Position numbers and translations under genes: made by a program. DNA of 57,010 nucleotides. Source: Tissierellales bacterium (GTDB taxonomy: Bacteria > Bacillota > Clostridia > Tissierellales > VENL01). Below are positions 17,743-44,460 of the stretch, piece by piece. The stretch covers positions 1 through 57,010 of the forward strand of contig JANQLB010000072.1 of the NCBI GenBank assembly GCA_028280805.1, in the 5' to 3' direction. Numbering within the stretch: the first letter of the stretch is position 1; each line of letters opens with the position of its first letter. The notes under the pieces were generated by a model. The model was not told the DNA's origin. It was given only the letters and a program-made list of their open reading frames with translations, and did not search any database.

Positions 17743-17914
17743 TATAGTTGAACTGAATAAATGTTCTTGTTTATATATTGAAATAGATATTTCATAAATA
17801 AAATTCCTAAAAGTTAACAAATTAATGATTTAAATGGATTATCACTAAACAAATACCAAAACAGGATAACAACATATACAAATGGTATTTTATAAATAAA
17901 AAAGAAAAAAACAG

Positions 17915-17943
17915 TTGAAAAATCATGGATTTATTAGTATAAT
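17915..17943 (+). promoter_or_regulatory. Sigma-A-type promoter, copy 1
   Basis: TTGAAA, 17 bp, TATAAT in the first P module. The -10 is perfect and the spacing optimal. Confidence 0.75.
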
Positions 17944-18195
17944 AAAGAAAAAGAAGTTTTAAACTGAATTATAATAGTTTATTAATTGGAATATAAGTAT
18001 TTATTGGTTATTAATAACTGGTATATAAAATTAATAATTTTGTTTACATATTAATATTAATATAAATATTTTATAAATATCATTACTGTTGGTTTAATAG
18101 ATTAATAATTAAAATATTTTTTCGATACAATAAATAGTAAAACAAGATAACAACAAGCATAAATGGTATTTTATAAATAAAAAAGAAAAAAATAG

Positions 18196-18224
18196 TTGCA
18201 AAATGATGAATTTATTAGTATAAT
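18196..18224 (+). promoter_or_regulatory. Sigma-A-type promoter, copy 2
   Basis: TTGCAA, 17 bp, TATAAT in the second P module. The surrounding ~100 bp are nearly identical to copy 3. Confidence 0.75.
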
Positions 18225-18309
18225 AAAAGAGAGAAAACTTAAATTGAATTAAATTATTATTTATAAATTACTCATCGTTTTTTGCTTGAAATATAAGTGT
18301 TTATTGTGT

Positions 18310-19322
18310 TTTAATCACTTGTAGGTCGAGCTTATTGCTGATTTTAAAATAGTACAAGCTATGCTAATTATAAAGAAAATTTGTCAAATCTTTATTTTTT
18401 TTAGGGCTTTAAGTTTGATGATTTATTGATATGTATTGTTAACAACATTAAACAATGCAAGAGTATGATTGCAATATAAAACTATTATTTAAATTATAAA
18501 AATTATTTAATGTTTTTAATTATATATAAATAATTTTTATTAAAAAGCTGTTAATCACTTTCGGATTGAGCTTATTGCTGATTGTAAAATAAGACAAACT
18601 ATGTTAATCATCAAGAAAATTTGTGAAGTCTTTATTTCTTCATGTCTTTAAGTTTGATGATTTATTGATTTGTATTGCTTATAACATTAAACAATACAAT
18701 TGTGTGATTAGATTATAAAACTAATATTTAAATCATATAAGTAATTTAATATTTTTGATTATTTATAAATAATTTTTATTAAAAAAATGTTAATCGTTGG
18801 TGAATGGAATTAATTATTTTGTTTACATATTAAAATAAACATTTCATAAATAAAATTTCTAAGGATTAATAGGTTAATAATTAAAACAATTTTTCTCGCA
18901 ATAAATAGTAAAAAAAGATAACAACAAGCATAAATGGTATTTTATAAATAAAAAAGAAAAAAATAGTTGCAAAAATTAAATTTGTTTAGTATAATTAAAA
19001 AAAAGGAAAATTTAAACTGTACAAAACCAATATCTGTAAATTGTTTAACGTTTTTTGCTTGAAATATAAGTGTTTATTGTGTTTTAATCACTTGTAGGTC
19101 GAGTTTATTGTTGATTGAAAAATAGTACAAGCTATGTTAATCATAAAGAAAATTTGTCAAATCTTTATTTTTTTAGGTCTTTAAGTTTGATGATTTATTG
19201 ATATGTATTGCTTATAACATCAAACAATGCAAAAATGTGATTAGAATATAAAACTATTATTTAAATTGTATAAGTTGTTTAATGTTTTAAACTATATATA
19301 AATAATTTTTATTAAAAAAGGA
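18310..19322 (+). ncRNA. Repeated structured leader (U modules) upstream of the cluster
   Basis: Three ~235-bp copies (about 18310-18545, 18550-18785, 19085-19322) each contain GTATTG-15-CAATAC/CAATGC, a hairpin kept in all three copies with an A-to-G change that preserves pairing as G-U. They also share ATTGCTGATT-type, AAGTTTGATGATTTATTG and TATAAATAATTTTTATTAAA blocks. The last copy runs straight into the ribosome binding site (AAAAAGGAGTGGG) of the acyl carrier protein gene. A regulatory 5' leader is the simplest reading; no known riboswitch class is recognised. Confidence 0.45.
18967..18995 (+). promoter_or_regulatory. Sigma-A-type promoter, copy 3
   Basis: TTGCAA, 17 bp, TATAAT in the third P module, about 340 bp before the acyl carrier protein start. 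Transcripts from it would carry one U leader; transcripts from copy 2 would carry all three. Confidence 0.75.
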
Positions 19323-19333
19323 GTGGGAAAATT

Positions 19334-19597
19334 ATGAGTGATTTAAAAAGAGAAGTTTGTGAAATGATTTTGAACAGATTGGGTTTCGATGATTTAACTA
19401 CCGAGGAGGTTGATTTTAATGCTCCGTTGTTTGCAGCACAAGACAAAGAAGAAAAGGGTTTAGGGTTAGATTCAGTAGATACATTAGAAATAGTTGCTGG
19501 AATTAGACAAAACTACAATATCCGAATTACAGAAAACGACATGCATATTTTTCAAAACATAAATACTATAGTAGAATTTGTTAGCAATAAAATTTAA
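19334..19597 (+). CDS. Acyl carrier protein of the cluster's type II synthase
   Basis: The 87-residue acidic helical protein has the phosphopantetheine site GLGLDSVDTLE, where the Ser in DSV carries the 4'-phosphopantetheine arm. It is a discrete type II carrier for the chain built by the neighbouring ketosynthase, reductase and dehydratase. The partner phosphopantetheinyl transferase lies 2.4 kb downstream. The insert FAAQDKEEKG before the site is longer than in fatty-acid AcpP and typical of carriers from secondary metabolism. ATG follows AAAGGAGTGGGAAAATT and is the first gene of the operon. Confidence 0.9.
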   Translation: MSDLKREVCEMILNRLGFDDLTTEEVDFNAPLFAAQDKEEKGLGLDSVDTLEIVAGIRQNYNIRITENDMHIFQNINTIVEFVSNKI

Positions 19598-19740
19598 CTG
19601 CAATAAAAAATTATATTTAAGGGATATAGTAAAACTTTTTTGCATGAAGTCTTTAAAAATAATTAATAGAGATATATAAATATGAAAATTTTAAAATTAC
19701 TACATAGAATTAAAATAGTTAAATAATGGGAGGAGTAAAA

Positions 19741-20148
19741 TTGCATTTTTCCTTTAAGTATAGTTTTAAACCAAGATTTTCTGATATTGATAAGTATGGT
19801 ATAGCACATCATAGTAAATATTTTTGTTGGTTTGAGGATGCTAGATATTATTTACTTGAATCAATTTTGCAAATATCAAAAGAGAATCTTCTTCAGTTAT
19901 ATGCACCAATTATTAGTCTTAAAGCTGACTATAAAAAGTCAATAGTATTTGAGAATACATATGTTATTTTAGTTAAAGTTATAATTGATAAGTTTAAAGC
20001 AGCTTCAAAATTTGAGTATCAGATTATGGATCTTAATGAAGAAATTCTTTTTGCAACTGGTTATACAGAACACGTTTTTACTAAAAGTACTGGTGAACTG
20101 CTTTTAGAAACTCCTGATTTTCTTTATGATAAGATTAAATTAATATGA
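19741..20148 (+). CDS. Hot-dog-fold (4HBT-type) thioesterase
   Basis: About 136 residues. The family signature FSDIDKYGIAHHSKYFCWFEDARY contains the usual catalytic Asp region and the first long helix of 4-hydroxybenzoyl-CoA-thioesterase-like proteins (key residues D, G, H and the E-x-AR). It probably releases or edits acyl chains on the carrier protein. Aryl-polyene-type clusters carry the same kind of enzyme. The ATG at 19726 overlaps the ribosome binding site GGGAGGAG, so the TTG at 19741 is chosen. It sits 143 bp after the carrier gene. Confidence 0.75.
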   Translation: MHFSFKYSFKPRFSDIDKYGIAHHSKYFCWFEDARYYLLESILQISKENLLQLYAPIISLKADYKKSIVFENTYVILVKVIIDKFKAASKFEYQIMDLNEEILFATGYTEHVFTKSTGELLLETPDFLYDKIKLI

Positions 20149-20161: not shown

Positions 20162-21193
20162 ATGAATACAATTTATATTAATGGGATAGGTGTGATACTT
20201 CCTGAAATTGAAGATCCAAGTGAATTGTGGAATGTTTTTTCTGAAAGTTCAATTGGTAATAAATGTAAGATTGAAAAAAATCCATCTTTTATTTCTAAAA
20301 GGAAGACAAGAAGAATGGATAGGTTTTCTATATTAGCATTATACACTGCGTATAAAGCATTTGAAGAATTTAAAGATAGTGACTTTAATTGTTATGAGTT
20401 TGGAACCGTTTATAACAGTGACTATGGAACGTTAAATACTATATTAGAATTTGCTCAATGCTTAACAGATGACTGTAGTATAGAAGCAAGTCCGGTTACT
20501 TTTGCTAACACTGTTACAAATGCTTGTGTAGGACATATATGTAATGAACTTGGTATAAAAGGTTCTAGTACAATGCTCTTAGGTAGTAATTATGTTGGAT
20601 ATTCGATGCAGTTAATTAGAAATGATAAAGTAAAATCAGTATTAGCAGGAGGAATAGAAGAGTATAATGAAGAATTGTTTGATGCTTTAGCAGAAAAAGG
20701 AGTTCATGCAAGTGAAGGTTTTTCTACTTTATTATTGTCAAAAGAAAAAACAAACAATTCTTTTTGTGAAATACTTTCATATTCTGAGACCAATTTAGGA
20801 GGACATTATTGTTTTTCAGAACAATTTAAACCGAAAGCAAGCAGTATAAAAAGCAATATTAGTAATGCTTTAATTAGAGCAAATCTAAATGTAAGTGATA
20901 TTGATGTAATATTAACAGCTACTAATCATAAAGGGTGTGCGGAGGAAGAATTATCAATAATTTATGATTTATTTAAAAACAATGAATTTATATTAAATCC
21001 AAAAGGTATTTTAGGTGATTTACTAGGGGCATCAGTAGGAATAAGTCTTACTATAGGAGCATTATTGCTGAAAGAACAAGTTATACCTAAAAATTTCAAC
21101 TTAAATAAAAGTAAAGATGGAAAAATTAAATATATACTTGTAAATGATTTTAATATAAGTGGTAATTATGTGTCTTTTATACTAAAAAAATAA
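20162..21193 (+). CDS. Ketosynthase-like protein lacking the catalytic triad (chain-length-factor type)
   Basis: A 343-residue thiolase-fold protein, shorter than the 405-residue ketosynthase nearby. The fold is visible in ANTVTNACVGHICNELGIKG and VLAGGIEEYNE. The nucleophile segment where family members read tACaSG is LLGSNYVGY (about 139-147), without Cys. The first His motif is replaced by ATNHKGCAEEEL and the second (GHxxGAAG) by LGDLLGASVG. A non-catalytic partner of the FabF-type protein at 23684, like the chain-length factors of type II polyketide systems, is the best reading. Transcribed with its neighbours (13-16 bp gaps). Confidence 0.8.
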   Translation: MNTIYINGIGVILPEIEDPSELWNVFSESSIGNKCKIEKNPSFISKRKTRRMDRFSILALYTAYKAFEEFKDSDFNCYEFGTVYNSDYGTLNTILEFAQCLTDDCSIEASPVTFANTVTNACVGHICNELGIKGSSTMLLGSNYVGYSMQLIRNDKVKSVLAGGIEEYNEELFDALAEKGVHASEGFSTLLLSKEKTNNSFCEILSYSETNLGGHYCFSEQFKPKASSIKSNISNALIRANLNVSDIDVILTATNHKGCAEEELSIIYDLFKNNEFILNPKGILGDLLGASVGISLTIGALLLKEQVIPKNFNLNKSKDGKIKYILVNDFNISGNYVSFILKK

Positions 21194-21209: not shown

Positions 21210-21956
21210 ATGTTTGATAGCTTAAAAGGGAAAACAGTTTTAGTTACAGGTGGGAGTAGAGGCATTGGTAAAAGTATTGTGAAATTGCTAGCTGATAACC
21301 ACTTAAATGTTGCTTTTACTTATAATAATAATGAGTTGGATTTATCCAATTTAAAAGACAGTATAAGTAATAAAAGTTCAAAAATCCATCAATACAAGTT
21401 AAATCTTGAAAATGAAGAAGAAATTAATACGGTTGTAAGAGATGTTGAGAGGGATTTTGGCAGAATAGATTTTTTAGTTAATAATGCTGGAATCATAAAA
21501 GATAATTATATGATGCTTATGAGTTCTGAAAATTGGAACAAAGTATTATCAACTAATTTAACAGGTGCTTTTTTAATTACAAAAGAAGTTCTTCCTATTA
21601 TGATGGCAACGGGAGGAGCTGTAGTGAACATATCTTCTGTTGCAGGCATTGTTGGGGTAGCAGGGCAAACTAACTATTGTGCAGCTAAGGCAGGTCTAAT
21701 TGGTTTTACAAAGGCTTTATCAAAAGAAGTAGCCGGTAAAAATATAAGAGTTAATGCAATAGCAGGAGGTTATGTGCAAACTGACATGATTAGTGGGCTT
21801 GACACAAAAAGAATAGATAATTATAAAGAAAAAATTTCTTTAAAAAGAATAGCTTCAACAGATGAAATTGCTTCTGTGGTTTTATTCTTATTATCGGATG
21901 GGGCGAGTTATATAACAGGTACAACAATAGAGGTTGATGGAGGTCTTATAAATTAA
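21210..21956 (+). CDS. 3-oxoacyl-ACP reductase (FabG type)
   Basis: The 248-residue classical short-chain dehydrogenase has the NADP-binding VTGGSRGIGKS, NNAG (about 88), the catalytic Ser in ISSVAG, YCAAK with the Tyr and Lys, and the terminal GTTIEVDGG. All catalytic residues are present. It should reduce the beta-keto group after each ketosynthase step. ATG 13 bp after the ketosynthase-like gene; ribosome binding site AAAGGGTAGG. Confidence 0.9.
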   Translation: MFDSLKGKTVLVTGGSRGIGKSIVKLLADNHLNVAFTYNNNELDLSNLKDSISNKSSKIHQYKLNLENEEEINTVVRDVERDFGRIDFLVNNAGIIKDNYMMLMSSENWNKVLSTNLTGAFLITKEVLPIMMATGGAVVNISSVAGIVGVAGQTNYCAAKAGLIGFTKALSKEVAGKNIRVNAIAGGYVQTDMISGLDTKRIDNYKEKISLKRIASTDEIASVVLFLLSDGASYITGTTIEVDGGLIN

Positions 21957-22001: not shown

Positions 22002-22601
22002 ATGATAGTTATATTTAATAAATTAGATTCTATAATAAAAAATGTAGTTTATAAAGATTTTAGTTATTTAAATAAGAATTATGATTTAAATCATTTCAAA
22101 AGAGTTAGAAGAAATTATAGAAACCTTCTTATTGAGGAGTTGTTGAATAATAATAGATTTAGAATTAACCGTGAAGATATGAAATTATATACTGAAAAAG
22201 GTGAGATTAATTTTTCAAGCTCTTATTCAGGTTATAATATAGCGGTTGCAATATCAGATGATCGTATAGGAATTGATATTGAAAAGTATGAAAATATATT
22301 TTATGAAAATATAGACATATTTACTTCTGTAAGTGAAATGAGTACTTTAAGAGATTTATTAAATACGTATACATTATTAGAAAAAGCAACATTTATTTGG
22401 TGCTTAAAAGAGAGTGTAGGGAAGCTTTATAATGTTGGGTTATCAAAAGGTTTTAAGGCTTTTAATCTCAAGAAAAATAATGAATTTTATTTAAGTACGA
22501 AATTGAACATTCCCAATAAAACCCATATTTATGTTTATTATAAGCTTTTTAAAGATTATTGTCTAGTTTTAAGTACATTTAAAAATTTTAATATACATTA
22601 A
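22002..22601 (+). CDS. 4'-phosphopantetheinyl transferase (Sfp type)
   Basis: The 199-residue protein has the two motifs of the family, RIGIDIEKYENI (metal-binding D and E) and FIWCLKESVGKLYN (W-x-x-KES/A-x-x-K). It attaches phosphopantetheine from CoA to the Ser of the carrier protein at 19334. Presence of a dedicated transferase supports a self-contained secondary-metabolite system. ATG follows ATAGGTGAGTTA. Confidence 0.85.
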   Translation: MIVIFNKLDSIIKNVVYKDFSYLNKNYDLNHFKRVRRNYRNLLIEELLNNNRFRINREDMKLYTEKGEINFSSSYSGYNIAVAISDDRIGIDIEKYENIFYENIDIFTSVSEMSTLRDLLNTYTLLEKATFIWCLKESVGKLYNVGLSKGFKAFNLKKNNEFYLSTKLNIPNKTHIYVYYKLFKDYCLVLSTFKNFNIH

Positions 22602-23256: not shown

Positions 23257-23679
23257 ATGAATCCTAAGGATATTTTTCTGCATAAAGAACCTTTTTTATT
23301 TGTTGATGAAATAATAGAGATGCGTTATCTTGAATACTCAAAAGGTAAAAAAAATGTGAGAAACAATGAGTTCTGGGTGGAAGCACATTTTCCTGGAGAT
23401 CCAGTTTTTCCGGGTGTATTATTGCTTGAGACTATGGCTCAGATAGGAGGTCTATTATTAAAAGGTAGTGATCATAACAAGCTTACTGCTTATTTGACAA
23501 AGGTAGATAATTTTAAACTAATAAAAAAAGTAGTTCCGGGAGATGAAATAATAGTTGAAGGGTTTTTTTTAGATGCTATAGCAGAGTTCGTTAAAGTTAA
23601 AACAAAAGCCTTTGTTAAGGATAATAAGGTTGCAGAAGCTGAGATAACATATGTATTTCGAGCGAATTTGGAGGGATGA
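23257..23679 (+). CDS. 3-hydroxyacyl-ACP dehydratase (FabZ type)
   Basis: The 140-residue hot-dog-fold dehydratase has HKEPFLFVDEI, EAHFPGDPVFPGVLLLETMA (catalytic His and the Glu in LLETMAQ) and VDNFKLIKKVVPGD. It dehydrates the hydroxyacyl chain to a trans-enoyl chain. No enoyl reductase is encoded nearby, so double bonds may accumulate. ATG after GATGGGGGGATGAA. The next gene starts 4 bp after its stop, so the pair is translationally close. Confidence 0.9.
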   Translation: MNPKDIFLHKEPFLFVDEIIEMRYLEYSKGKKNVRNNEFWVEAHFPGDPVFPGVLLLETMAQIGGLLLKGSDHNKLTAYLTKVDNFKLIKKVVPGDEIIVEGFFLDAIAEFVKVKTKAFVKDNKVAEAEITYVFRANLEG

Positions 23680-23683
23680 TACG

Positions 23684-24868
23684 ATGAAAAATGAAAGAAG
23701 AGTGGTAGTAACCGGTATCGGAATGATGTGTAATATAGGAAATAATAAAGAAGAAATACTTTCTAATTTAATAGACGAAAAAATTAATTTTAAAGAATGT
23801 GAAGAAATTGCAGGATTTAAGGTAGGTAGAAGTAATATGCCTAAGATTGAATTAACACAAGTTGATTCTGTCGATAAAATAGAATGGATGTCTGACAAGA
23901 CTATTAATCAAGCTTTGCAAGATAGTTCTTTATCAATAAATGAAATAGAAGAAAAGGATAATAGATTTGCTCTTTCATTTGCAACATCCTTATATGGCGT
24001 AGAACAGTCTTTGAAAGGTTTAACCGATAAAAAACAAAGAGGTTTATGGTATTTGCATACAAGACAATTGATAAGCAGAATAGCAAAAAAATATGCAATT
24101 AAAGGGAGTGTCTACACAACCAGTTCAGCTTGTGCTTCCGGGACTGCAGGAGCAATAATAGGTTATGATCTTATAAAAAATGATGAAGCAGATATTGTAT
24201 TGGTTGGAGGTACAGATTATATTTCAAGTCTATCTCTATATGGTTTTAATTCACTTCAATCATTAAGCAAGAATATATGTAAACCTTTTGATATTGATAG
24301 AGATGGTATAAACATAGGTGAAGGAAGTGCTTTCTTTATTTTTGAAGAGTTAGAGCATGCAAAGTCAAGAGATAAAAAATGGTATGCAGAAGTAATTGGT
24401 TGTGGTTTGGCAAATGAGGCATATCATATAACAAGTCCTGATCCCGAAGGTGAAGGTGTACTTTACGTTATGAAACAAGCAATTAAACAAGCCTCAATCA
24501 GTCCTGACAAAATTGATTATATAAATGCTCATGGAACAGGAACAAAAGCTAATGATGTGATGGAACTGAAAGCTATAGAAAAGTTGTTAGATAAAAAAGA
24601 ACATGTTGACACGTTTGTTTCATCTACTAAATCTAGAACTGGTCATTGTTTAGGTTCAGCAGGCAGTATAGAATTAGGATTTTGTTTACTGGCATTATCA
24701 AACAATTTATATTTAAACACCGTAGGTTCTAACGAAATGATAGAAGACAAACTCAATTTATTAAAAAACAGAGAAGAAAATAAAGAATTAGAGTATATTT
24801 TATCAAATTCTTTTGCTTTTGGTGGGAATTTAGCCAGTATCCTTATAAAGAAGCAAATAGAAAATTAA
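23684..24868 (+). CDS. Beta-ketoacyl-ACP synthase (FabF type), catalytically intact
   Basis: About 394 residues with the full triad: Cys in TTSSACASGTAGA, His in INAHGTGTKANDVMELKA and His in STKSRTGHCLGSAGSIE. It condenses the growing chain with malonyl-ACP. The partner is probably the triad-less protein at 20162. The ATG at 23651 is out of place; the ATG at 23684 follows TGGAGGGATGATACG. No acyltransferase for malonyl loading is in the cluster, so FabD of primary metabolism is presumably used. Confidence 0.9.
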   Translation: MKNERRVVVTGIGMMCNIGNNKEEILSNLIDEKINFKECEEIAGFKVGRSNMPKIELTQVDSVDKIEWMSDKTINQALQDSSLSINEIEEKDNRFALSFATSLYGVEQSLKGLTDKKQRGLWYLHTRQLISRIAKKYAIKGSVYTTSSACASGTAGAIIGYDLIKNDEADIVLVGGTDYISSLSLYGFNSLQSLSKNICKPFDIDRDGINIGEGSAFFIFEELEHAKSRDKKWYAEVIGCGLANEAYHITSPDPEGEGVLYVMKQAIKQASISPDKIDYINAHGTGTKANDVMELKAIEKLLDKKEHVDTFVSSTKSRTGHCLGSAGSIELGFCLLALSNNLYLNTVGSNEMIEDKLNLLKNREENKELEYILSNSFAFGGNLASILIKKQIEN

Positions 24869-24898: not shown

Positions 24899-25621
24899 AT
24901 GAAAATACTTTCAATTAATGGTAGCCCGAGAGGGCATAGTAGCAATACTAATAAAATGATTATAGAGATTTTAAAAGGTGCTGAAGAAAAAGGGGCAGAA
25001 ACAGAAAAAATACTATTGTCAGAATTAGATATTAAGCATTGTAGTGGTTGCTTTTGCTGCTGGATGAATAAAAACAATAAATGTATTATTAATGATGATA
25101 TGGAAGAGTTAATAGAAAAATATACTCAATCAGACGTAGTTATTTATGGAACTCCTTTATTTATGGATAATGTATCTTCAATTCTTAAAGCTTTTATTGA
25201 TAGGTGTATAGCAATAGTGTGTCCTTATATGGAAAAAGATCCTAAAGGAGAATATCGTCATGTTAAATCCAGTTCTTTCAGAATACCTAAATTTGTGGTG
25301 GTCAGCAATGCAGCTTTTCCAGAAAACAGTCAATTTCAGGTGGTATCTCACTACTTTAAGAGATTGGCCAGAAGTATGCACACAGAAGTTATTGCTGAAA
25401 TCTACAGAGGGCAAGGCTTGCTGTTAGCTTTACCAAAGCATGCAGATGACAGATATATTATAGATAACTATAAAAAGCTTCTTTATAGAGTTGGTAAAGA
25501 GATTGTTGAGAACTTTGTTATAAATGAAAAAACACAAATAGAAATAGATAAGTCTTTAATATCTTATGAAAAATATATTAACAGCATAGAGGATTATTGG
25601 CAAAAGGTTTTGGGAAATTAA
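24899..25621 (+). CDS. NADPH-dependent FMN reductase / flavodoxin-fold protein
   Basis: The 240-residue protein has INGSPRGHSSNTNKM (FMN phosphate loop), CSGCFCCWMNKNNKC at about 48-62 (a Cys-rich motif as in iron-sulfur flavoproteins), and YGTPLFMDNVSSILKAFIDR. It could supply electrons to the B12 radical SAM enzyme, or oxidise or reduce the acyl product. It is not an enoyl-ACP reductase by sequence. ATG follows TAAAGGAAAAAAAG, 30 bp after the ketosynthase. Confidence 0.75.
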   Translation: MKILSINGSPRGHSSNTNKMIIEILKGAEEKGAETEKILLSELDIKHCSGCFCCWMNKNNKCIINDDMEELIEKYTQSDVVIYGTPLFMDNVSSILKAFIDRCIAIVCPYMEKDPKGEYRHVKSSSFRIPKFVVVSNAAFPENSQFQVVSHYFKRLARSMHTEVIAEIYRGQGLLLALPKHADDRYIIDNYKKLLYRVGKEIVENFVINEKTQIEIDKSLISYEKYINSIEDYWQKVLGN

Positions 25622-27025: not shown

Positions 27026-28102
27026 ATGAATGAACTAAACACTTTCAAAAACGTTTTAAACTACTCTACTTGTAACGAAGATTCATTAACAGAAATAAAG
27101 GCTTTAGGTATCAATGCAACTGACAATATCCTTTGTATTACTGGTTCAGGAGGTAGAGTTCTTAACTTATTAACACAAAATCCTAAAAAAATAGTTGCAA
27201 TTGATTTTAATCCAATACAAAATTGGTTACTTGAGCTGAAAATAGCTGCCATAAAGAACTTAAACTATGATGAATATACTAAATTTTTAGGATTGAGTGA
27301 ATGTAGTGAAAGAACAAAAAAGTTTGATAGGATTAAACATGATTTATCAACAGATAGTTATCAATATTGGAAAAGAAACATAAGATTAATTTCCAGAGGA
27401 ATTATATATCAAGGTCAATTTGAAAGAAAGTGCAAATATATTGCTAACATGGTAAAAGAAACTTTGGGAGAAAAAGTTAATAAAATATTTGATTTTGACA
27501 ACTTAGAAAAACAGAGGGAATTCTACAAAAAAGAGTGGAATAATTCTGAATGGAAAGATAATGTTGATTTTGAAATTCATAGAGAGGTTGATCCAGCTTT
27601 TTATTTGTATGTTAATAATGACTATAATATTAGAAATTATATTTCAAACATGCTGGATAAAGGTTTTAATACAAGTTTAATAAGAGATAATCATATTTTA
27701 TGCTTACTTATAGATGGTAATTATAAAAGATTGTCAAAATTACCTCCCTGTTTACAAAAAGAAAACTTTGACACATTAAAAAATAATTTACATAAAATCG
27801 AAATCGTAACAGGGAATGTTATTAATTTTCTTGAGAAGCATGAGGCAAACTTTTTTAATAAATTCTCTATGTCTGATGTTACAGGTTATTTAAGTGAAAA
27901 AGACTCTAAGAAACTCTATAAGTATATATTAAATTCAGCAGCTGATAATAGCAGAATTTGTTCACGCAGTCTTTTGGCAGATAGAGAGATTCCTATTGAA
28001 TTTACTAATATAATAAACAGAGATATTGAATTGGAAAAAAAGTTAGAAAATGAAGATTTGGCACTTGCATACAAAATATTAGCAGCGACAATAAAATTTT
28101 AA
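27026..28102 (+). CDS. DUF3419 / BtaA-like 3-amino-3-carboxypropyl transferase, paralogue 1
   Basis: The 358-residue protein has NYSTCNEDSLTEIKAL, then the SAM-binding segment ILCITGSGGRVLNLL and VAIDFNPIQNWLLELKIAA, the signature of DUF3419 proteins such as BtaA. BtaA transfers the 3-amino-3-carboxypropyl group of SAM to the hydroxyl of diacylglycerol in betaine-lipid synthesis. The acceptor here is unknown; a hydroxyl of the acyl chain, a lipid or the peptide are possible. ATG follows TTGGAGGAATTATA, 23 bp after the aminotransferase. Two further copies lie at 30450 and 31621. Confidence 0.8.
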   Translation: MNELNTFKNVLNYSTCNEDSLTEIKALGINATDNILCITGSGGRVLNLLTQNPKKIVAIDFNPIQNWLLELKIAAIKNLNYDEYTKFLGLSECSERTKKFDRIKHDLSTDSYQYWKRNIRLISRGIIYQGQFERKCKYIANMVKETLGEKVNKIFDFDNLEKQREFYKKEWNNSEWKDNVDFEIHREVDPAFYLYVNNDYNIRNYISNMLDKGFNTSLIRDNHILCLLIDGNYKRLSKLPPCLQKENFDTLKNNLHKIEIVTGNVINFLEKHEANFFNKFSMSDVTGYLSEKDSKKLYKYILNSAADNSRICSRSLLADREIPIEFTNIINRDIELEKKLENEDLALAYKILAATIKF

Positions 28103-28374: not shown

Positions 28375-28387
28375 TGGGAGGAATGGT

Positions 28388-29995: not shown

Positions 29996-30134
29996 TACAT
30001 GTTGTTATAATACTTAATTTACAAGTAATAAAACCTGATATAGATAGTAAAGTAATGAATATTTAAAAGGAGAAATTTTTTGGAAGTAACATTAATACAG
30101 TAAAATACAATTAATAGATGAAAGGATGTTAATA

Positions 30135-37297: not shown

Positions 37298-37556
37298 ACC
37301 TATTGTAAATTTGTGGTTTGACGAAATCAATTATATAAAAATTCTTCAGACTGAGCCCAAAAGAGAAGTATATCTTACCAGATGCGAAATGGACATCTGG
37401 CGTCTTCTTGCTGAAGAAGACTATACGGTAAATAGTATTATAGAAAAACTACAAGACAAGCATGAAAAGGATGTTGTTTTAGAATCTCTAGGTAAACTTG
37501 ACGAATATATGCTTATAAGCAAAAAGAAAAACTATTTATGGAAGAATGATGATTGA
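37254..37556 (+). CDS. Stand-alone PqqD-like peptide-recognition protein
   Basis: About 100 residues. The pattern YLTRCEMDIWRLLAEEDYTV, IIEKLQDKHEKDVVLESLGKL.. is that of PqqD/RRE-type winged-helix proteins, which bind leader peptides. The start at 37254 follows GAGGAGGTTATGG and lies inside the end of the SPASM gene (44-bp overlap). The cluster thus has a fused and a free copy, perhaps serving the two radical SAM-type proteins. Confidence 0.6.
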   Translation: MTLKNKDFILNTVIEPIVNLWFDEINYIKILQTEPKREVYLTRCEMDIWRLLAEEDYTVNSIIEKLQDKHEKDVVLESLGKLDEYMLISKKKNYLWKNDD

Positions 37557-37748: not shown

Positions 37749-38252
37749 ATGAATTACGATATTAGAATGGCAGTGGCAGAAGATGCAGAAAAAATGTCAG
37801 CATTAATTTATGATTATTATGAATCAATGGAAAATGAAACTAATTTTTTAAAGCATTATAGTGTTGATAATCTAAAAGCAAGACTTGAAAAAGGATATGA
37901 AAAAGGTTATATTGCTATTAGAGAAGATAAAATAATAGGGTTGATCTGTTATAGAGATATAGGTTTTCATGTTGAAATAACAGAAATTTTACTAAAGAAA
38001 GGCAAGAGTTATGGAGCAATAGTGGCGAGTCTTACAAATTCTATCTTTGATTCAATAAAACCAAAAGAAGGGTTTAAAAAAATTTTATGTTCTACACATC
38101 ACGATAATGAACAGTCAATGGTGATGTTAATTAAAATGGGATTTTTACCAGAGGCTTTTATTCGTCACGGCTATAGAAAAGATGTTCATCAGGTTGTATG
38201 GAATTTATATATTGGACAAAACGGATTGGAAGACGATACAATCTGGCCATAA
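37749..38252 (+). CDS. GNAT family acyltransferase of the cluster
   Basis: The 167-residue GNAT has GYIAIREDKIIGLICYRDIG in the core and KKGKSYGAIVASLTNSIFDS in the position of the acyl-CoA loop, then NEQSMVMLIKMGFLPEA. The R-G-x-G loop is weak (KSYGAIVA), so the acyl donor may not be acetyl-CoA. GNATs in goadvionin and selidamide systems join a polyketide or fatty acyl chain to a ribosomal peptide; position here makes the same role attractive, but it is unproven. ATG after TTGTTGAGGAGGTTTAGCT. Confidence 0.7.
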   Translation: MNYDIRMAVAEDAEKMSALIYDYYESMENETNFLKHYSVDNLKARLEKGYEKGYIAIREDKIIGLICYRDIGFHVEITEILLKKGKSYGAIVASLTNSIFDSIKPKEGFKKILCSTHHDNEQSMVMLIKMGFLPEAFIRHGYRKDVHQVVWNLYIGQNGLEDDTIWP

Positions 38253-38352: not shown

Positions 38353-39285
38353 ATGACAATTAAAGTTGAAAATCTTGTTAAAAAATATGGGGATTTAGTT
38401 GCTGTCAATGATTTGAATCTTGAAATTAAAGAAGGTGAAATATTTGGACTGCTTGGTCCTAATGGTTCAGGTAAAACAACAACAATAAATTGTATTCTTT
38501 CTCTTTTAAACTATAGCAGTGGGAATATAACCATTTATGGGAAAAGCATGCATCCTCAAGCTTATAATTTAAAAAAAGATATTGGAGTAATAATGCAAGA
38601 TGTTGCTACTTTTGATGAATTAACAGTTATTGAAAATATAGATTACTTTTGCGGCTTATATATAAAAAATAGAAAAGAAAGAAAGAAATTAGTTCAGGAA
38701 GCAATTGAATTTGTAGAGTTACAAGATTTTAAAAAATTTCTCCCTAAAGAACTTTCCGGAGGGTTATTAAGAAGATTGAATATTGCATGTGGTATTGCCC
38801 ACAAACCTAAAATAGTATTTTTTGATGAGCCAACAGTTGGAGTTGATCCTCAGAGTAGAAATAATATTCTCGAAGGAATTCAAAAACTAAATAATCAGGG
38901 TGCAACAGTAATTTACACATCTCACTACATGGAAGAAGTAGAACAGATATGTACGCGTATCTGCATACTTGATAAAGGTAATGTTATTGCCTTAGGAAGT
39001 AAAGAAGAATTGAAAGATAAGATTAAGTTTTGTGAAAAGGTAAATATTGAAGTTTTTGATTTTGAAGAAAACATGTTTTCAGAAATTAAAAAGTTGCCTA
39101 ATATAGTATCGGTTTCATTTGAGGAAAAAAGAATTGTTGCAGAATTCAGCAAAGGCACAAATAATATTATTCAACTTCTTGAGTTCTTAAAAGAAAAAAA
39201 TATTAAATTTGGAAGGGTTTATTCTCAATTCCCTACTTTAAATGATGTTTTTTTAGAGCTTACAGGAAAAGAATTAAGAGATTAG
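38353..39285 (+). CDS. ABC transporter ATP-binding protein
   Basis: The 310-residue protein has Walker A GLLGPNGSGKTTT, Q-loop VIMQDVATFDELT, signature LSGGLLRRLNIACG, Walker B KIVFFDEPTVGVDPQSR and H-loop TSHYMEEVEQ. The C-terminal extension is DrrA-type. It drives export with the two permeases that follow, and probably secretes the mature product and gives self-protection. ATG after ACAGGGGTGGATAT; the permease gene follows after 16 bp. Confidence 0.92.
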   Translation: MTIKVENLVKKYGDLVAVNDLNLEIKEGEIFGLLGPNGSGKTTTINCILSLLNYSSGNITIYGKSMHPQAYNLKKDIGVIMQDVATFDELTVIENIDYFCGLYIKNRKERKKLVQEAIEFVELQDFKKFLPKELSGGLLRRLNIACGIAHKPKIVFFDEPTVGVDPQSRNNILEGIQKLNNQGATVIYTSHYMEEVEQICTRICILDKGNVIALGSKEELKDKIKFCEKVNIEVFDFEENMFSEIKKLPNIVSVSFEEKRIVAEFSKGTNNIIQLLEFLKEKNIKFGRVYSQFPTLNDVFLELTGKELRD

Positions 39286-39301: not shown

Positions 39302-40447
39302 ATGTTTTTTCATATATTAAAATATAAATTAAAGTGCCTAATGAGAGACAAAGTTGCTGTTTTTTGGGTTCTCATGTTACCGATAATACTTATTACACTG
39401 TTTAATTTTACGCTTACTAATATTCTAGCACCAGATGAGTTCACTCAAGTAAAAATTGCAGTTGTTGACAATAATGATTTTCACCAAAATGAAACTTTTA
39501 AAACATTTGTAAATTCACTTATAGATTCATATGAAAAAAATGAACAATCAATGTTTAATTTTATTATGTCTTCTTCACAAAAAGCAGAAAAGTCACTAGA
39601 TGATAATGAAATAGACGGGTATATAAAAACTTCTGAAGAAATCACGCTGTTTGTAAAACAAGAAGGTGTAAAACAAAGTATTGTTAAAGCTCTTTTGGAC
39701 GAATCTATTCAAATGAATTCTACGGTTGAAACAATAACGTCAAGCAATCCTCATGTATTTGATGATAAATTCATAGAAGATATTTCAAATACTCAGAATT
39801 ATCTTAAAGATGTGCCATTGAACATAGGAGATTTTAACCCTATTGTTATAATGTTCTATTCTCTCATAGCAATATCATGCATGTATGGAGCATTTTGGGG
39901 TTTGAGAGTAATAATTGAGAATCAAGCTGATTTGTCAGCACAAGGAACAAGGCTTAACCTTAGTCCTGTACACAAGTTAAAAGTTCTTGCAGGTGATTTT
40001 TCTGCTGCATGTATAATACAGTTTACTATTGTTCTTGTTCAAATTTTATTTATTGAACTGATTCTAAAGAAAGATTTGGGTGTACAAATGGGTTATATTA
40101 TACTTACCACTTTTATTGCAAGTATAATGGGAATATCTTTTGGAGCGTTTATAGGAGCAATTGTAAAGAAAGATGAGGATTCTAAAATTGGTATTGTAAA
40201 TTTAGTAATAGGTGCAGGTTATGTTCTTATAGCATCAGGGCAAGTAAAGTATAATGTTAATTCAAGATTTCCTTTTTTGGCATACATTAACCCTCTAAAC
40301 TTAATAAATGATTCACTATATTCTTTGAATTATTTTAACAGCTATTCAAGATATTTAACAAATATTCTATTAATGCTGTTATTTACGTTTTTGTTTAGCT
40401 TGGTAACATATTTGATTGTAAGGAGGGAGAAATATGAAAGTATTTAA
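39302..40447 (+). CDS. ABC-2 type permease, first subunit
   Basis: The 381-residue protein has one N-terminal helix (about 20-42), a long extracytoplasmic domain (about 45-175) and five further helices (about 185-375). This is the layout of YhgE/DrrB-like ABC-2 permeases. Its stop overlaps the next permease start by 14 bp, so the two are coupled and probably form a heterodimer with the ATPase at 38353. ATG after TAGAGGAGAGATTATTCAT. Confidence 0.85.
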   Translation: MFFHILKYKLKCLMRDKVAVFWVLMLPIILITLFNFTLTNILAPDEFTQVKIAVVDNNDFHQNETFKTFVNSLIDSYEKNEQSMFNFIMSSSQKAEKSLDDNEIDGYIKTSEEITLFVKQEGVKQSIVKALLDESIQMNSTVETITSSNPHVFDDKFIEDISNTQNYLKDVPLNIGDFNPIVIMFYSLIAISCMYGAFWGLRVIIENQADLSAQGTRLNLSPVHKLKVLAGDFSAACIIQFTIVLVQILFIELILKKDLGVQMGYIILTTFIASIMGISFGAFIGAIVKKDEDSKIGIVNLVIGAGYVLIASGQVKYNVNSRFPFLAYINPLNLINDSLYSLNYFNSYSRYLTNILLMLLFTFLFSLVTYLIVRREKYESI

Positions 40448-41624
40448 AGTATATTTTTTAATAATGAGAAAAAAAATACCGACACTCTTAATATTCTTGA
40501 TTACGTATATTGGACTTTTAGTGGTTTACAACATTGATTTTCCAGCAAATGAAGGTGGATCTTTTGAAGATGCTAAAATAAGGCTATCCTTTTTAAGTTA
40601 TGATATTACTGACGAGGGAAAAAATACAGAATTTGTAGAAGGATTAAAGAACTACCTTTCTGAATACTCACAAATCATCATAATTGATGATGATAAAGAG
40701 AAACTTGAAGATGCTCTTTTTTCTGAAAAAATACATTATGTAGTTAGAATTCCATCAGATTTTACAAAAAACTTTTTTGAAGGTAATGAAGCAAAAATAG
40801 AAAGAATGTCAATATCAAATTTAACTCAAGCAACATACGCAGATATGCATATAAACAAATATCTCAATAGAGCGAGACTTTATAAAAGGCATATGGAAGG
40901 AATTTCAGAACCTTTAATGGTAGAGAAATTGAAAAGTGATCTTTCAAAAAATGTTGAGGTTGAAGTTTCAGGCAAGGGATTTTTATTAGAGGAAATTACC
41001 AGTATGACCAACCATTATAATTTATTGGCATTCTACCTTCTTTTTATTCTAATATATGGTGCCGGAATAAATATGATGGCTTTTAACAGGTCTAAGATAA
41101 TTAAAAGAAATAATTGTTCGCCAATTTCTATAACTAATCGTAATTTTCAGTTATTACTTGCTAACTTGACTTTTGCAGTTTTTTGTTGGATAATTGGGGT
41201 TTTAACAAGCTTTATATTTTATACGGAACAAGTTGTTTCAATTAATTCGTTACTTCTTGTAATTAATTCATTTGTACTGATGCTTACTACTATTTCTATA
41301 AGCTTTTTTATTGGAAGTAACATAAAAAACAAAGAAGCATTTTACGCAATAACTAATGTACTGGCGTTGGGAATGTGTTTTTTAAGTGGAATTTTTATAC
41401 CTCAAGATGTTTTGGGACCAAAAGTAATTGAAATCGCCAGATTCTTGCCTACATACTGGTTTGTAAAAAATAATATCGAAATTCAGGCTTTGTCTGTTAT
41501 TTCAACAGAAAATTTATTGCCGATTATTAGTCAGATGTTAATTATTTTGTGTTTTGGTATTGGTGTGCTGATTATTTCTCTTTTAATATCAAAACTAAAG
41601 TTAACTAAATTAAGAAAATCCTAA
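40434..41624 (+). CDS. ABC-2 type permease, second subunit
   Basis: The 396-residue protein has the same topology as the preceding subunit (helix at about 15-32, extracytoplasmic domain to about 190, then five helices). It has a family-typical GMCFLSGIFIPQDVLGP near the C terminus. The two permeases show only weak similarity. ATG is reached by ribosome re-entry from the preceding gene; ribosome binding site AAGGAGGGAGAAAT. Confidence 0.85.
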   Translation: MKVFKVYFLIMRKKIPTLLIFLITYIGLLVVYNIDFPANEGGSFEDAKIRLSFLSYDITDEGKNTEFVEGLKNYLSEYSQIIIIDDDKEKLEDALFSEKIHYVVRIPSDFTKNFFEGNEAKIERMSISNLTQATYADMHINKYLNRARLYKRHMEGISEPLMVEKLKSDLSKNVEVEVSGKGFLLEEITSMTNHYNLLAFYLLFILIYGAGINMMAFNRSKIIKRNNCSPISITNRNFQLLLANLTFAVFCWIIGVLTSFIFYTEQVVSINSLLLVINSFVLMLTTISISFFIGSNIKNKEAFYAITNVLALGMCFLSGIFIPQDVLGPKVIEIARFLPTYWFVKNNIEIQALSVISTENLLPIISQMLIILCFGIGVLIISLLISKLKLTKLRKS

Positions 41625-41720
41625 TATATTTATTATGTTGAGTTTTTAAAGTACACTTATCACGAATTCAGTAGCTAATATACATAAGTATAGTTTAATT
41701 ATAATAAAAGGGTGGTTAAA

Positions 41721-43025
41721 ATGATAAGTTCAGCTTTGCCAGAAAGCAGGATCTCAAAAATTTCGGATTCTAACGGTATTAGAGTTTTTAAAATAAAAAG
41801 TGATAAGTTTAATACTAATACAATAAATATTTGTATACATGACCAATTAATTAAAGAAAGAGCTTCTTTTAATGCTATTTTACCTTCAGTATTAATGAGA
41901 GGCTGCGTTACTTTTCCTACATCGCAAGATATATTTATGGAACTGGAGAATCTTTATGGAGCGTTTTTTGAATATGGAACAATAAAAAAAGGAGAACGTC
42001 AAATCATACAATTTCATATTGAATATATTTCAGATAAATACGTAAATGATAAGATAAATCTTACTGAAAAATCTTTTGATTTTCTTTATGAAATTATATT
42101 AAAACCGCTTTTAGAACATAAAGTATTTAGGAATGAATATGTTGAACAGGAAAAAAATCATCTTGCTAAAAAGATTAGAAGTAGAATAAATAATAAAAAT
42201 CAGTATGCAATTTCAAAGTGTTTTGAAGAAATGTGTAATGGTGAGCCTTTTTACATATACGAAAAAGGAAGTATTGAAGATTTACACAATATTGATTCCG
42301 ATAATTTATATAAATATTATTGCTCTCTTATTGAACATGCTCCTATAGATGTTTATCTTTGCGGTGAATTCAAGGATGATAAAATTAAGTATATATTAAG
42401 TAAACTCTCAAGAATAAAACGTGGTAGTAAATTAAACAGGATAGAACCTCCTATAATTAAAAAAGAAATTAAAAAAGTTAAAGAGATTAACGAGTTTATA
42501 AATATTGAACAAGCTAAACTTTCTCTTGGCTTTAGAACAAATATCCCTCCTAATGATGATAGTTATTATGAACTTTTATTATATAACAGTATTTTAACTG
42601 GAGGTACACATTCTAAACTTTTCAAGAATGTTAGGGAAAAAACGGGTCTTGCTTATTATGTTATGTCAAGGTTAGAAAAATTCAAAGGTCTTATGGTTAT
42701 TAGCTGTGGAATTGACAGTAGTAATAAAGAAAAAACTTTTGATATAATAATCAAACAAATGGAAGATATGAAGAAGGGAAATATTTCAGATTATGAATAC
42801 GAATCTGCATTAAAATGGATAGAGACAGGAACTAATTCATTAAAGGATAGTCAGTTAAACATTGTTGATTTTTATATAAGCCAATCCATAGCTGGTACAG
42901 AGGACAGCTTTGATTCAGTTATTGAAAAAATTAGAAAAGTTAAAAAAGAAGACCTAGTTACATTATCAAAATCTATCAAACTAGATACTGTGTTTTTTCT
43001 TACATCAAAAGCAAATCAGTTGTAA
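41721..43025 (+). CDS. M16-family peptidase homologue, non-catalytic subunit (YmfF-like)
   Basis: A 434-residue two-half M16 fold; IKKGERQIIQFHIEYISD and GGTHSKLFKNVREKTGLAYY are typical. The inverted zinc motif HxxEH expected at about 50-60 is absent (ILPSVLMRGCVTF). It is thus the R/Y-loop-type partner of a two-subunit peptidase, as in AlbE/AlbF of subtilosin and YmfF/YmfH. It probably helps cleave the leader. ATG 41721 after AAGGGTGGTTAAA. Confidence 0.82.
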   Translation: MISSALPESRISKISDSNGIRVFKIKSDKFNTNTINICIHDQLIKERASFNAILPSVLMRGCVTFPTSQDIFMELENLYGAFFEYGTIKKGERQIIQFHIEYISDKYVNDKINLTEKSFDFLYEIILKPLLEHKVFRNEYVEQEKNHLAKKIRSRINNKNQYAISKCFEEMCNGEPFYIYEKGSIEDLHNIDSDNLYKYYCSLIEHAPIDVYLCGEFKDDKIKYILSKLSRIKRGSKLNRIEPPIIKKEIKKVKEINEFINIEQAKLSLGFRTNIPPNDDSYYELLLYNSILTGGTHSKLFKNVREKTGLAYYVMSRLEKFKGLMVISCGIDSSNKEKTFDIIIKQMEDMKKGNISDYEYESALKWIETGTNSLKDSQLNIVDFYISQSIAGTEDSFDSVIEKIRKVKKEDLVTLSKSIKLDTVFFLTSKANQL

Positions 43026-43054
43026 ATTATATACAGTGAACAGGAGATTATTTT

Positions 43055-44338
43055 ATGATTATAAATACTATTGAGTATAAAAATATAAACGAGACTCTTT
43101 ATGTTTATCAGCATAAAAGTGGATTTAAAGCATTTTTTATACCTAAAAAAGGATATTCAAAGAAATACGTAGCAATTACCACAAATTACGGTTCTATTGA
43201 CAATGCATTTATTGCTCCTGGAGAAAAAGATATTACAAAAGTACCTCATGGAATAGCTCATTTTCTTGAGCATAAGCTTTTTGAAAAAGAAGACGGTAAT
43301 GCCATGGAAAAATTCTCATTACTTGGTTCTAATTCTAACGCTTATACAACCTTTAACCAAACTGCTTACTTGTTTTCCTGTACTGAAAAGTTCAACGAAA
43401 ATTTACAGCTCTTACTGAAAACTGTACAGAGTCCATTTTTTACTGAACAGGGCGTGGAAACAGAAAAGCAAATAATTACTCAGGAAATAAAAATGTATCA
43501 AGATAATGCCAATTGGAGAGTTTTGTTTAATTTCTTGGATGCATTATACAAAAACAATCCGGTAAAATTTGATATAGTAGGTACAATTGAAAGTATAAGT
43601 GAAATAAATAAAGAAATACTTTATAAATGCTACAATACTTTTTATCATCCATCCAATATGGCTATGATAGTTGTTGGGGATATAAATTATAAAGAGCTTT
43701 TTAAACAGATTGATGAAAATATTAAGACTTTTTCTGCTTCACCTGAAATAAAGAGGATATTTCCGATAGAGCCACACGAGTTAAATAAAAAATATATTGA
43801 ACAAAAACTTGAGATTTCAACTCCTTTGTTTCAACTTGGTTTTAAGGATAGTATTGTTATTGGAAAAGGTATTGATTCAGTTAAACGAGAAGTTGCAGTC
43901 AAACTGTTGCTGTCAATGATTTTTGGAAAGAGTTCAAAACTATATAATAATCTTTATGGAGAAGGATTAATTAATAATCACTTTAAATTTGATTATTTAT
44001 TAGACCCTAATTATGCTTTTTCAATTTTAGGGGTAGAATCCTCAGATCCTGAAGTTGTCAGAAATAGAATAATTGAAGAGCTGGATAGAATAAAATATAA
44101 GGGTCTTAACAGAAAAGATTTTGAGAGAATAAAAAGATCTGTTTATGGAAAATTCCTTCAAATGCTTAACTCTGTTGACAAAATTACTTATAATTTCATA
44201 TCTGTTTGCTTCAAGGAAGTGAATATGTTTGACTATTTGGAGGTATATAATGGAATGTCCTACGAAAACATAATGGAAGTTTTCAACAATCATTTTATTT
44301 TGAATAATATGGCTTTTTCGGTAGTAAACCCAGTATAA
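43055..44338 (+). CDS. M16-family zinc peptidase, catalytic subunit (YmfH-like)
   Basis: The 427-residue M16 peptidase has an intact inverted zinc motif GIAHFLEHKLFEK (HFLEH) and a distal ligand region ETEKQIITQEIKMYQD. SNSNAYTTFNQTAY follows, as in the YmfH group. With the preceding subunit it should form the cluster's leader or maturation peptidase. ATG after CAGGAGATTATTTT, 29 bp after its partner. It is the last cluster gene before the 19-bp terminator. Confidence 0.88.
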   Translation: MIINTIEYKNINETLYVYQHKSGFKAFFIPKKGYSKKYVAITTNYGSIDNAFIAPGEKDITKVPHGIAHFLEHKLFEKEDGNAMEKFSLLGSNSNAYTTFNQTAYLFSCTEKFNENLQLLLKTVQSPFFTEQGVETEKQIITQEIKMYQDNANWRVLFNFLDALYKNNPVKFDIVGTIESISEINKEILYKCYNTFYHPSNMAMIVVGDINYKELFKQIDENIKTFSASPEIKRIFPIEPHELNKKYIEQKLEISTPLFQLGFKDSIVIGKGIDSVKREVAVKLLLSMIFGKSSKLYNNLYGEGLINNHFKFDYLLDPNYAFSILGVESSDPEVVRNRIIEELDRIKYKGLNRKDFERIKRSVYGKFLQMLNSVDKITYNFISVCFKEVNMFDYLEVYNGMSYENIMEVFNNHFILNNMAFSVVNPV

Positions 44339-44407
44339 AAAGAAAAATGATATTTAGTTTAGATTTCTAAAGTACTGTTAATTGAAATGTATCCTTCTGA
44401 TTTAAAT

Positions 44408-44460
44408 AATATAATGGTTCAGTAATTATCAAATGTGGGCGATTACTGAACCATTATATT
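44408..44460 (+). terminator. Strong terminator closing the cluster
   Basis: AATATAATGGTTCAGTAAT pairs perfectly (19 bp) with its reverse complement across a 15-nt loop, and the right arm ends ATTATATTTCATATT. It lies 70 bp after the catalytic M16 gene. Confidence 0.8.

Follow-up and report, generated by a model that had tools for sequence, protein, structure and literature searches.

What does a gene cluster make in which the enzymes of a type II acyl synthase, three DUF3419 proteins and a pyruvoyl decarboxylase stand beside ribosomal peptide precursors and radical S-adenosylmethionine (SAM) maturases? The question is raised by a 57,010-nucleotide stretch of DNA of a Tissierellales bacterium (contig JANQLB010000072.1 of assembly GCA_028280805.1; contig C93 of our 3.4-Mb draft genome, 89% complete), hereafter the window, in which a run of genes on the + strand extends from 19334 to 44338, over approximately 25 kb. 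An initial annotation, made from the sequence alone, had described a hybrid cluster of acyl, DUF3419 and peptide genes, and this was borne out by family matches and by the retention of 22 genes plus the precursors in a second genome, that of Alkaliphilus pronyensis LacV. We put the probability at about one half that the cluster makes a lipid-peptide hybrid, in which an acyl chain with a polyamine-like tail is joined by a GNAT acyltransferase to a peptide modified by a B12 radical SAM enzyme.

Gene content and conservation in a second genome

Most of the enzyme families previously named were confirmed by Pfam and NCBIfam, the stand-alone PqqD aside. The families recognised are, on the acyl side, an acyl carrier protein (ACP), a thioesterase, a ketosynthase (KS)-like partner, a ketoreductase (KR), a 4'-phosphopantetheinyl transferase, a FabZ-type dehydratase (DH), a KS, a member of the FMN-reductase family and a class III aminotransferase; in the middle, three DUF3419 proteins, a member of the phosphatidylserine decarboxylase (PSD) family and a short-chain dehydrogenase/reductase (SDR); and on the peptide side, a B12 radical SAM enzyme, a radical-SAM-like/SPASM protein, a GNAT, three ATP-binding cassette (ABC) genes and an M16 peptidase pair. 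The features are as follows, with percent identities to A. pronyensis.

17749..19319, +: AT-rich region before the ACP gene with degenerate tandem duplications; the third 236-nt copy ends just before the ACP ribosome-binding site
19334..19597, +: ACP (PF00550, E 1.6e-6; 83%)
19726..20148, +: 4HBT-type thioesterase (family match; 74% ortholog)
20162..21193, +: chain-length-factor-like KS partner (family match, alignment; 56% ortholog)
21210..21956, +: KR, FabG-like SDR (family match; 73% ortholog)
22002..22601, +: 4'-phosphopantetheinyl transferase (family match; 52% ortholog)
23257..23679, +: FabZ-like DH (Pfam/NCBIfam; 76% ortholog)
23651..24868, +: KS with Cys-His-His (family match, alignment; 67% ortholog)
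24899..25621, +: FMN reductase/flavodoxin-fold oxidoreductase (family match; 67% ortholog)
25668..27002, +: class III aminotransferase (Pfam/NCBIfam; 74% ortholog)
27026..28102, +: DUF3419 paralog a, predicted 3-amino-3-carboxypropyl transferase (PF11899; clade a)
28183..28374, +: small hydrophobic protein, predicted membrane protein (64% over 55 aa to A. pronyensis L005:11093-11263)
28334..29098, +: PSD-family pyruvoyl enzyme with N-terminal hydrophobic segment and GSQ at the expected self-cleavage site (PF02666; 70% ortholog)
29264..29995, +: second SDR, window-specific (family match; one SDR only in A. pronyensis)
30126..30353, +: Sm-fold small protein (model; 62% ortholog; 33% relative in locus L024)
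30450..31526, +: DUF3419 paralog b (PF11899; clade b)
31621..32709, +: DUF3419 paralog c (PF11899; clade c)
32889..32912, strand not applicable: palindrome AATCTATTA-N6-TAATAGATT before precursor 1
32945..33100, +: precursor peptide 1
33370..33393, strand not applicable: palindrome before precursor 2
33427..33579, +: precursor peptide 2
33894..34043, +: precursor peptide 3, its core divergent, preceded by an imperfect palindrome
34417..35838, +: B12-dependent radical SAM enzyme, CX3CX2C intact (63% ortholog)
35828..37297, +: pseudo-radical-SAM protein: PqqD-like N-terminus, radical-SAM-like barrel without CX3CX2C, SPASM
37251..37556, +: stand-alone PqqD-like protein, predicted leader-binding (weak match, E 0.046; 50% ortholog)
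37749..38252, +: GNAT acyltransferase (PF13420, E 8.8e-7; 57% ortholog)
38353..39285, +: ABC exporter ATPase (73% ortholog)
39302..40447, +: first ABC-2 permease (56% ortholog)
40434..41624, +: second ABC-2 permease (51% ortholog)
41712..43025, +: M16 peptidase partner, YfmF family (NF047422 above cut-off; absent from the A. pronyensis cluster)
43055..44338, +: M16 peptidase, YfmH family, HxxEH present (NF047421 above cut-off; second copy on contig C125)
44408..44460, +: strong terminal hairpin

A contig scan with the DUF3419 alignment returned a single locus, in A. pronyensis LacV, where orthologs of 22 window genes (50–83% identity) and the precursor family lie within about 20 kb. The order from ACP to DUF3419 a is as in the window; there follow the small ORF, PSD, DUF3419 b, DUF3419 c, the Sm-like gene and the three ABC genes, and then two precursors, the B12 radical SAM, SPASM, PqqD-like and GNAT genes and a FabD-type acyltransferase gene. 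The exporter genes are therefore found between DUF3419 c and the precursors in A. pronyensis and after the GNAT gene in the window. A. pronyensis is assigned to Peptostreptococcales in the NCBI taxonomy and did not turn up in the search of 249 genomes from the window's order; its own order is larger, and the cluster thus seems to be present in two orders. Within the window, the Sm-like gene lies inside the DUF3419 set, and its relative in locus L024 (12725-12907) lies between the B12 radical SAM and SPASM genes, adjoining both. Conservation with rearrangement, together with an Sm-like gene placed among the DUF3419 genes, is what we would expect of one pathway. A single-genome accident or an assembly chimera was rejected because the gene set recurs, in another order, in A. 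pronyensis; plasmid carriage was rejected because tblastn in plasmids gave only matches below 31% identity.

The cluster is not one tight operon. The single operon-like run of the initial annotation stood as to strand and failed as to tightness, with intergenic gaps of 655, 231, 235, 326, 314 and 373 nt among others (the 231-nt gap contains the small hydrophobic ORF) and with a palindrome specific to the precursor genes. Its left boundary and gene order were also revised: coding starts at 19334, and the 17745-19333 region, where the feature had been taken to begin, consists of non-coding AT-rich repeats; the DUF3419 genes, previously given as contiguous, are interrupted, the order being DUF3419 a, small hydrophobic ORF, PSD, SDR, Sm-like ORF, DUF3419 b and DUF3419 c. 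The repeats are degenerate duplications of the ACP gene's own upstream element (236 nt three times, 101 nt three times and 174 nt twice); no Rfam family matches them at the gathering level, and their best hit in the A. pronyensis upstream region (E 0.33) is not significant. At the right end, the proposed terminator corresponds to a strong hairpin (44408-44460, z -6.6), which a consensus terminator scan did not score as a terminator. Promoter-like sites were not commoner in the window than in shuffles (112 versus 114.4) and were not used.

The acyl synthase and the DUF3419 proteins

In the alignment, the KS retains Cys-His-His; nothing in its partner lines up with the KS Cys, and the two His are replaced there; Cys122 of the partner (NACVGH) lies upstream, unaligned with the active-site Cys. 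As judged from these residues, the two proteins have the arrangement of a KS/chain-length-factor pair. As in a highly reducing type II polyketide synthase (PKS), a KS with Cys-His-His is paired with a KS-like subunit without these residues, and KR, DH and ACP are all present in the cluster. This set makes a polyene or otherwise unsaturated acyl chain the likely product. The KS partner was found in one of 391 genomes (E <= 1e-25). The A. pronyensis cluster has a single SDR only, and the FabD-type acyltransferase after its GNAT gene (PF00698, L008:2725-3621) has no counterpart in the window cluster.

The three DUF3419 paralogs match PF11899 above the cut-off (E 1e-57 to 5e-63). A protein search, which scored only the 7996 candidates sharing most words, gave 28 hits, and 26 of them (the two excluded being the window's own), plus three window rows, were placed in a maximum-likelihood tree of 29 sequences. 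Fifteen sequences fall in three five-member clades, with support of 99/98 (a), 98/93 (b) and 100/99 (c), and each clade holds one member each from the window, A. pronyensis, a 13,158-bp contig and a 105,073-bp contig, where the sharing of contigs (P0063/64/66 and P0067/68/69) is inferred from equal lengths. Because every clade has one member per lineage, the triplication predates the split of the lineages, and the retention of all three copies suggests three distinct steps; the paralogs are thus probably non-redundant. Four of the 28 hits bear the JGI name S-adenosylmethionine-diacylglycerol 3-amino-3-carboxypropyl transferase, and, by family membership, DUF3419 a, b and c are predicted to transfer 3-amino-3-carboxypropyl groups from SAM. 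Relatives outside the three clades, at 44–45% identity (P0070/P0073, apparently from the same 25,202-bp contig, P0071, P0072, P0074 and P0075), may belong to related pathways.

DUF3419 was detected in one of 60 relatives and in one of two genomes of the A. pronyensis genus. It was present in 5 of 391 genomes of the window's class (E <= 1e-15), with the triplet in the window genome only, and in 3 of 393 genomes of the A. pronyensis order (E <= 1e-30), with the triplet in A. pronyensis only. The other four DUF3419 genomes of the sampled class carry single copies of about 20–31% identity. The cluster genes were rejected as ordinary betaine-lipid genes, because DUF3419 in those four genomes is single and of low identity, with no other cluster genes beside it by tblastn except generic ABC ATPases (ORFs were inspected at two of the four loci).

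The PSD-type enzyme matches PF02666 above the cut-off (E 6e-43), and Gly-Ser is found at the expected self-cleavage site (GSQVDVLLP in the window and GSQVDILLP in A. pronyensis, read from the sequence), where cleavage is predicted. This enzyme would strip the carboxylates left by the DUF3419 transfers. A second, higher-scoring PSD is encoded outside the cluster in A. pronyensis, so the cluster PSD of that genome is probably not a housekeeping enzyme. Sequence comparison gave no credible solved relatives of DUF3419 and PSD. The small hydrophobic ORF (28183-28374) overlaps the start of the listed PSD ORF, and both have hydrophobic N-terminal segments. The small hydrophobic protein and the Sm-like protein have no family match, yet both are conserved in A. 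pronyensis and belong to the cluster. The Sm-like protein (75 aa) was modelled with a mean predicted local distance difference test score (pLDDT) of 87 from a three-row alignment; its best Foldseek match was Gemin6 (E 3.7e-3), followed by Hfq, Sm and some non-Sm proteins, all weak, and the name is a fold label only.

The peptide half and its maturases

The three precursor peptides of the initial annotation were recovered as three ORFs, each with a ribosome-binding-site-like motif. They share the start M-x-G-I-Y-I-S-P and an Ala/Val/Thr/Gly-rich C-terminus, precursor 3 least so; the description of the precursor as Cys-free holds for the core, and precursor 3 carries one Cys in its leader half. 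A profile search of 5.8 billion proteins yielded five precursor-family proteins, from the window, A. pronyensis and P0054 (short contigs). In an alignment of five cores, three have a Lys at the same position. An exact palindrome with 9-bp arms occurs twice per whole genome in both the window genome and A. pronyensis, always 27–33 nt upstream of a precursor start codon. Precursor 3 is preceded by an imperfect copy only, and when two mismatches were allowed, one unrelated weak site appeared, at 12101.

Near the precursor genes, the B12 radical SAM enzyme has B12-binding and radical SAM domains with an intact CX3CX2C, and it scores below the curated cut-offs of subfamilies of ribosomally synthesized and post-translationally modified peptides (RiPPs), namely ApyD (151.7 of 750 bits) and rSAM_ocin_1 (107.2 of 281.85). 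The adjacent protein, which had been read as a PqqD-SPASM radical SAM enzyme, retains the SPASM domain (TIGR04085 41.1 bits, cut-off 27; PF13186 17.2, under 21.5; Cys conserved) and lacks CX3CX2C, with zero Cys between residues 90 and 356. Its match to the PqqD-like domain PF05402 (cut-off 23.4) is 15.3 bits, compared with 23.3 for the A. pronyensis protein and 27.5 for P0008. The stand-alone PqqD likewise gave a weak, sub-cut-off match (E 0.046), though it has a 50% ortholog in A. pronyensis. The SPASM family (E <= 1e-45) was found in one of 393 genomes of the A. pronyensis order.

The loss of CX3CX2C is shared by P0005, P0006 and P0007, which form a clade (100/100), while the motif is present in P0008–P0010, and P0008, the sister of that clade (100/98), retains it; the tree comprised 15 and the alignment 10 of the 48 proteins found. 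The Pfam radical SAM match begins at profile position 22–26 in P0005–P0007 and at 3 in P0008. Seven of the 48 lack CX3CX2C in their first two thirds, including four of 278–326 aa that are possibly truncated. The model of the window protein matches TigE (8vpo) and the sactisynthase 5wgg, with a mean pLDDT of 82.5 and values below 50 at residues 99-105, 127-137 and 463-489, of which residues 127-137 span most of the former cluster loop. A broken pseudogene was rejected, because the loss is common to three diverged frames, all of full length, which retain the SPASM cysteines, and because the model is confident over most of its length. For thuricin CD it is reported that, after mutation of the SAM-cluster Cys of TrnD, fully modified peptide is still obtained with TrnC, at slightly lower activity (PMC12093266). 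A partner can therefore function although it has no SAM cluster of its own.

Of 249 genomes from the window's order, 8 encode B12 radical SAM proteins (E <= 1e-60), the window genome included, and six of the other seven (all but G049) were examined. Their six loci (L024–L029) carry one to four B12 radical SAM genes of 30–39% identity and adjoining short precursor-like ORFs that start M-x(1-4)-aromatic-x-x-P and have hydrophobic stretches; these ORFs were chosen by this motif and a ribosome-binding-site motif, and others were passed over, one of them with such a site (L028:11978). L024 also encodes an Sm-like protein, a PqqD-like protein that exceeds the PF05402 cut-off and SPASM proteins whose motif is intact, as it is in the SPASM proteins of L025 and L026. 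No synthase, DUF3419 or PSD genes were found in the six 19.9-kb stretches by tblastn with 27 window proteins (E <= 1e-3). The peptide half therefore resembles a broader family, which here has gained an acyl-polyamine half; the precursor-like loci of L024–L029 perhaps represent an under-described peptide family.

The M16 pair exceeds its family cut-offs (NF047422, 391.1 bits against 285; NF047421, 479.5 against 250). A second pair lies on contig C125 (G000:C125:35492-36751), so the cluster pair is an extra copy, and its identification with the housekeeping YmfFH was rejected. Leader removal by a heteromeric M16 peptidase has been reported for PttP1/PttP2 (PMC10885120), and the YfmF/YfmH-type M16 family is named for the 5-aminopentanol modification of EF-P. 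Directly downstream of the cluster are genes for a CPBP/Rce1-type membrane protease (44866-45798) and Amj, an alternate to MurJ (46069-46875), for which a role in self-protection is possible, and the left flank encodes a beta-lactamase-fold protein (1748-2773) and an APH-family phosphotransferase (11195-12169).

The proposed product and its alternatives

The sequence itself shows the gene content, its retention in A. pronyensis, the one-to-one persistence of the DUF3419 paralogs, the missing CX3CX2C of the SPASM protein and the palindrome confined to the precursors. For a joined product, the following route is proposed. The KS and its partner, KR, DH and ACP would build a polyene or otherwise unsaturated acyl-ACP, on which the class III aminotransferase would place an amine. 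With SAM as donor, DUF3419 a, b and c would each add a 3-amino-3-carboxypropyl group, to successive amines, and after transfer the carboxylates would be removed by the PSD-type pyruvoyl enzyme to leave aminopropyl units. On the peptide side, PqqD-like domains would hold the leader M-x-G-I-Y-I-S-P, and the SPASM protein would act as a non-catalytic adaptor and iron-sulfur partner of the B12 radical SAM enzyme, which would modify the Ala/Val/Thr/Gly core, perhaps by C-methylation; PoyC, a B12 radical SAM enzyme, reportedly C-methylates Val. The leader would be removed (in the window by the M16 pair), the freed amine of the peptide acylated by the GNAT and the product exported by the ABC system. 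The full form of this proposal, which we hold tentatively and somewhat short of even odds, is a new hybrid class: a polyamine-tailed polyene lipopeptide of ribosomal origin, its polyamine grown by three aminocarboxypropyl transferases and a pyruvoyl decarboxylase, transfer first, and its peptide matured by a B12 radical SAM enzyme, a natural pseudo-enzyme and an Sm-fold partner.

Several observations weigh against the joined product, and we know of no product from this cluster. The joining of acyl chain to peptide is the weakest step: the GNAT is a weak generic match (PF13420, E 8.8e-7), and no Lys is conserved across all five cores, which would favour N-terminal over side-chain acylation if acylation happens. 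The exact palindrome marks the precursor genes only and was not found at the acyl half, and with the wide gaps this means that the two halves may be expressed apart. As to the linkage of the halves, which the initial annotation had left to comparison with other genomes, the outcome was largely favourable: A. pronyensis keeps both, re-ordered and interleaved. Against linkage, an apparent 105,073-bp contig (P0067–P0069, inferred) carries the DUF3419 triplet with no SPASM (48 proteins) or precursor (5 proteins) homolog listed, so that on present evidence the halves are not linked everywhere. In the window SPASM protein, the PqqD match falls under the cut-off. The cluster PSD is the sole PSD found in the window genome (89% complete) and could serve another role there. 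The M16 pair is absent from the A. pronyensis cluster and so is not conserved; by this comparison the pair and the second SDR are accessory and window-specific. Finally, each of the two SDRs has a further match to PF13561, a family named "enoyl-ACP reductase", and a reductase role is conceivable for the flavodoxin-fold protein; from the PF13561 matches, a reduced rather than polyene chain is possible.

Some of these points would equally suit two products of the same locus: the acyl half would yield an aminated polyene or fatty polyamine and the peptide half a modified peptide, the two perhaps acting together and never covalently joined. The precursors' own cis element, the DUF3419 triplet without a detected peptide half on the 105-kb contig and the B12 radical SAM peptide loci without acyl genes in 19.9 kb agree with such a separation; however, the halves are interleaved, re-ordered and yet together in two genomes, and a single exporter and a single GNAT serve both, so that we regard two products as rather unlikely, though a serious competitor. 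Alternatively, the DUF3419 trio might decorate the peptide, at its terminus or a side chain, in the manner of MccD, with the acyl chain as a plain lipid cap. Aminocarboxypropyl transfer is reported for microcin C (PMC10491745), but the triplet is possibly also found apart from precursors, the aminotransferase gene is followed by those for DUF3419 and PSD, and PSD and the small ORF have hydrophobic N-terminal segments; a peptide acceptor accordingly seems improbable. A metallophore, with serial aminocarboxypropyl units kept as a nicotianamine-like chelating head group on the acyl peptide, is the least credible product, since, although three aminocarboxypropyl transferases do resemble the logic of opine metallophores and of nicotianamine (the latter discussed in PMC10491745), the dedicated decarboxylase would remove the carboxylates, and scans of the cluster genes and of 20 flanking ORFs, 7 of them without any match, named no family for metal uptake.

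The lipid-peptide hybrid has its nearest known kind in the GNAT-lipidated RiPPs (goadvionins, lipolanthines and selidamides), some loci of which also hold acyl-building genes. These RiPPs (PMC13060382) share with the window a GNAT and a ribosomal precursor in one locus. The window differs by its type II KS/chain-length-factor-like acyl genes, DUF3419 triplet, decarboxylase, B12 radical SAM enzyme and Cys-free core; Pfam recognised no lanthionine synthetase, the enzyme typical of lipolanthines and goadvionins, in the cluster proteins scanned. In selidamides, the GNAT lipidates a core Lys or Orn; the window has a GNAT, and no Lys is shared by all five cores. With highly reducing type II PKS, the window has in common a KS with an inactive KS-like partner, KR, DH, ACP, thioesterase and phosphopantetheinyl transferase, and it differs by the link of this set to an aminotransferase, DUF3419 and a peptide pathway. 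Fabclavine and zeamine are hybrids of a peptide and a long-chain polyamine, with an aminotransferase in the KS system, made by non-ribosomal peptide and polyunsaturated-fatty-acid-type synthases, in place of which the window has a ribosomal peptide and DUF3419. PMC10698177 and PMC8358021 deal with the highly reducing type II PKS, including the polyene subgroup and aryl polyenes. Microcin C MccD/MccE carries out aminocarboxypropyl transfer and decarboxylation, in a step order that is unsettled (PMC10491745). The window shares the SAM-derived transfer with decarboxylation in a ribosomal-peptide pathway, but uses DUF3419 and PSD-type pyruvoyl families, with three rounds and an acyl acceptor predicted. 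With TrnC/TrnD of thuricin CD it shares paired maturases with leader-binding domains, the SAM cluster of one partner being dispensable, whereas the window protein has lost the motif by nature and is proposed to work with a B12 radical SAM enzyme. The combination had been called undescribed-looking, and no published description of such a cluster was found among the matches listed, which cover open-licence PMC papers.

If the proposal is true, the cluster would unite three kinds of biosynthesis that do not appear together in the papers listed: a type II synthase making polyenes, the growth of a polyamine through serial aminocarboxypropyl transfer with decarboxylation, and peptide chemistry by a B12 radical SAM enzyme. 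The role of DUF3419 would then extend past betaine lipids, an acyl-polyamine route independent of decarboxy-SAM would be provided, and the natural pseudo-radical-SAM protein, with its intact sister, would allow the SPASM half to be probed alone. The presence of the cluster in a named strain, A. pronyensis LacV, opens the question to testing.

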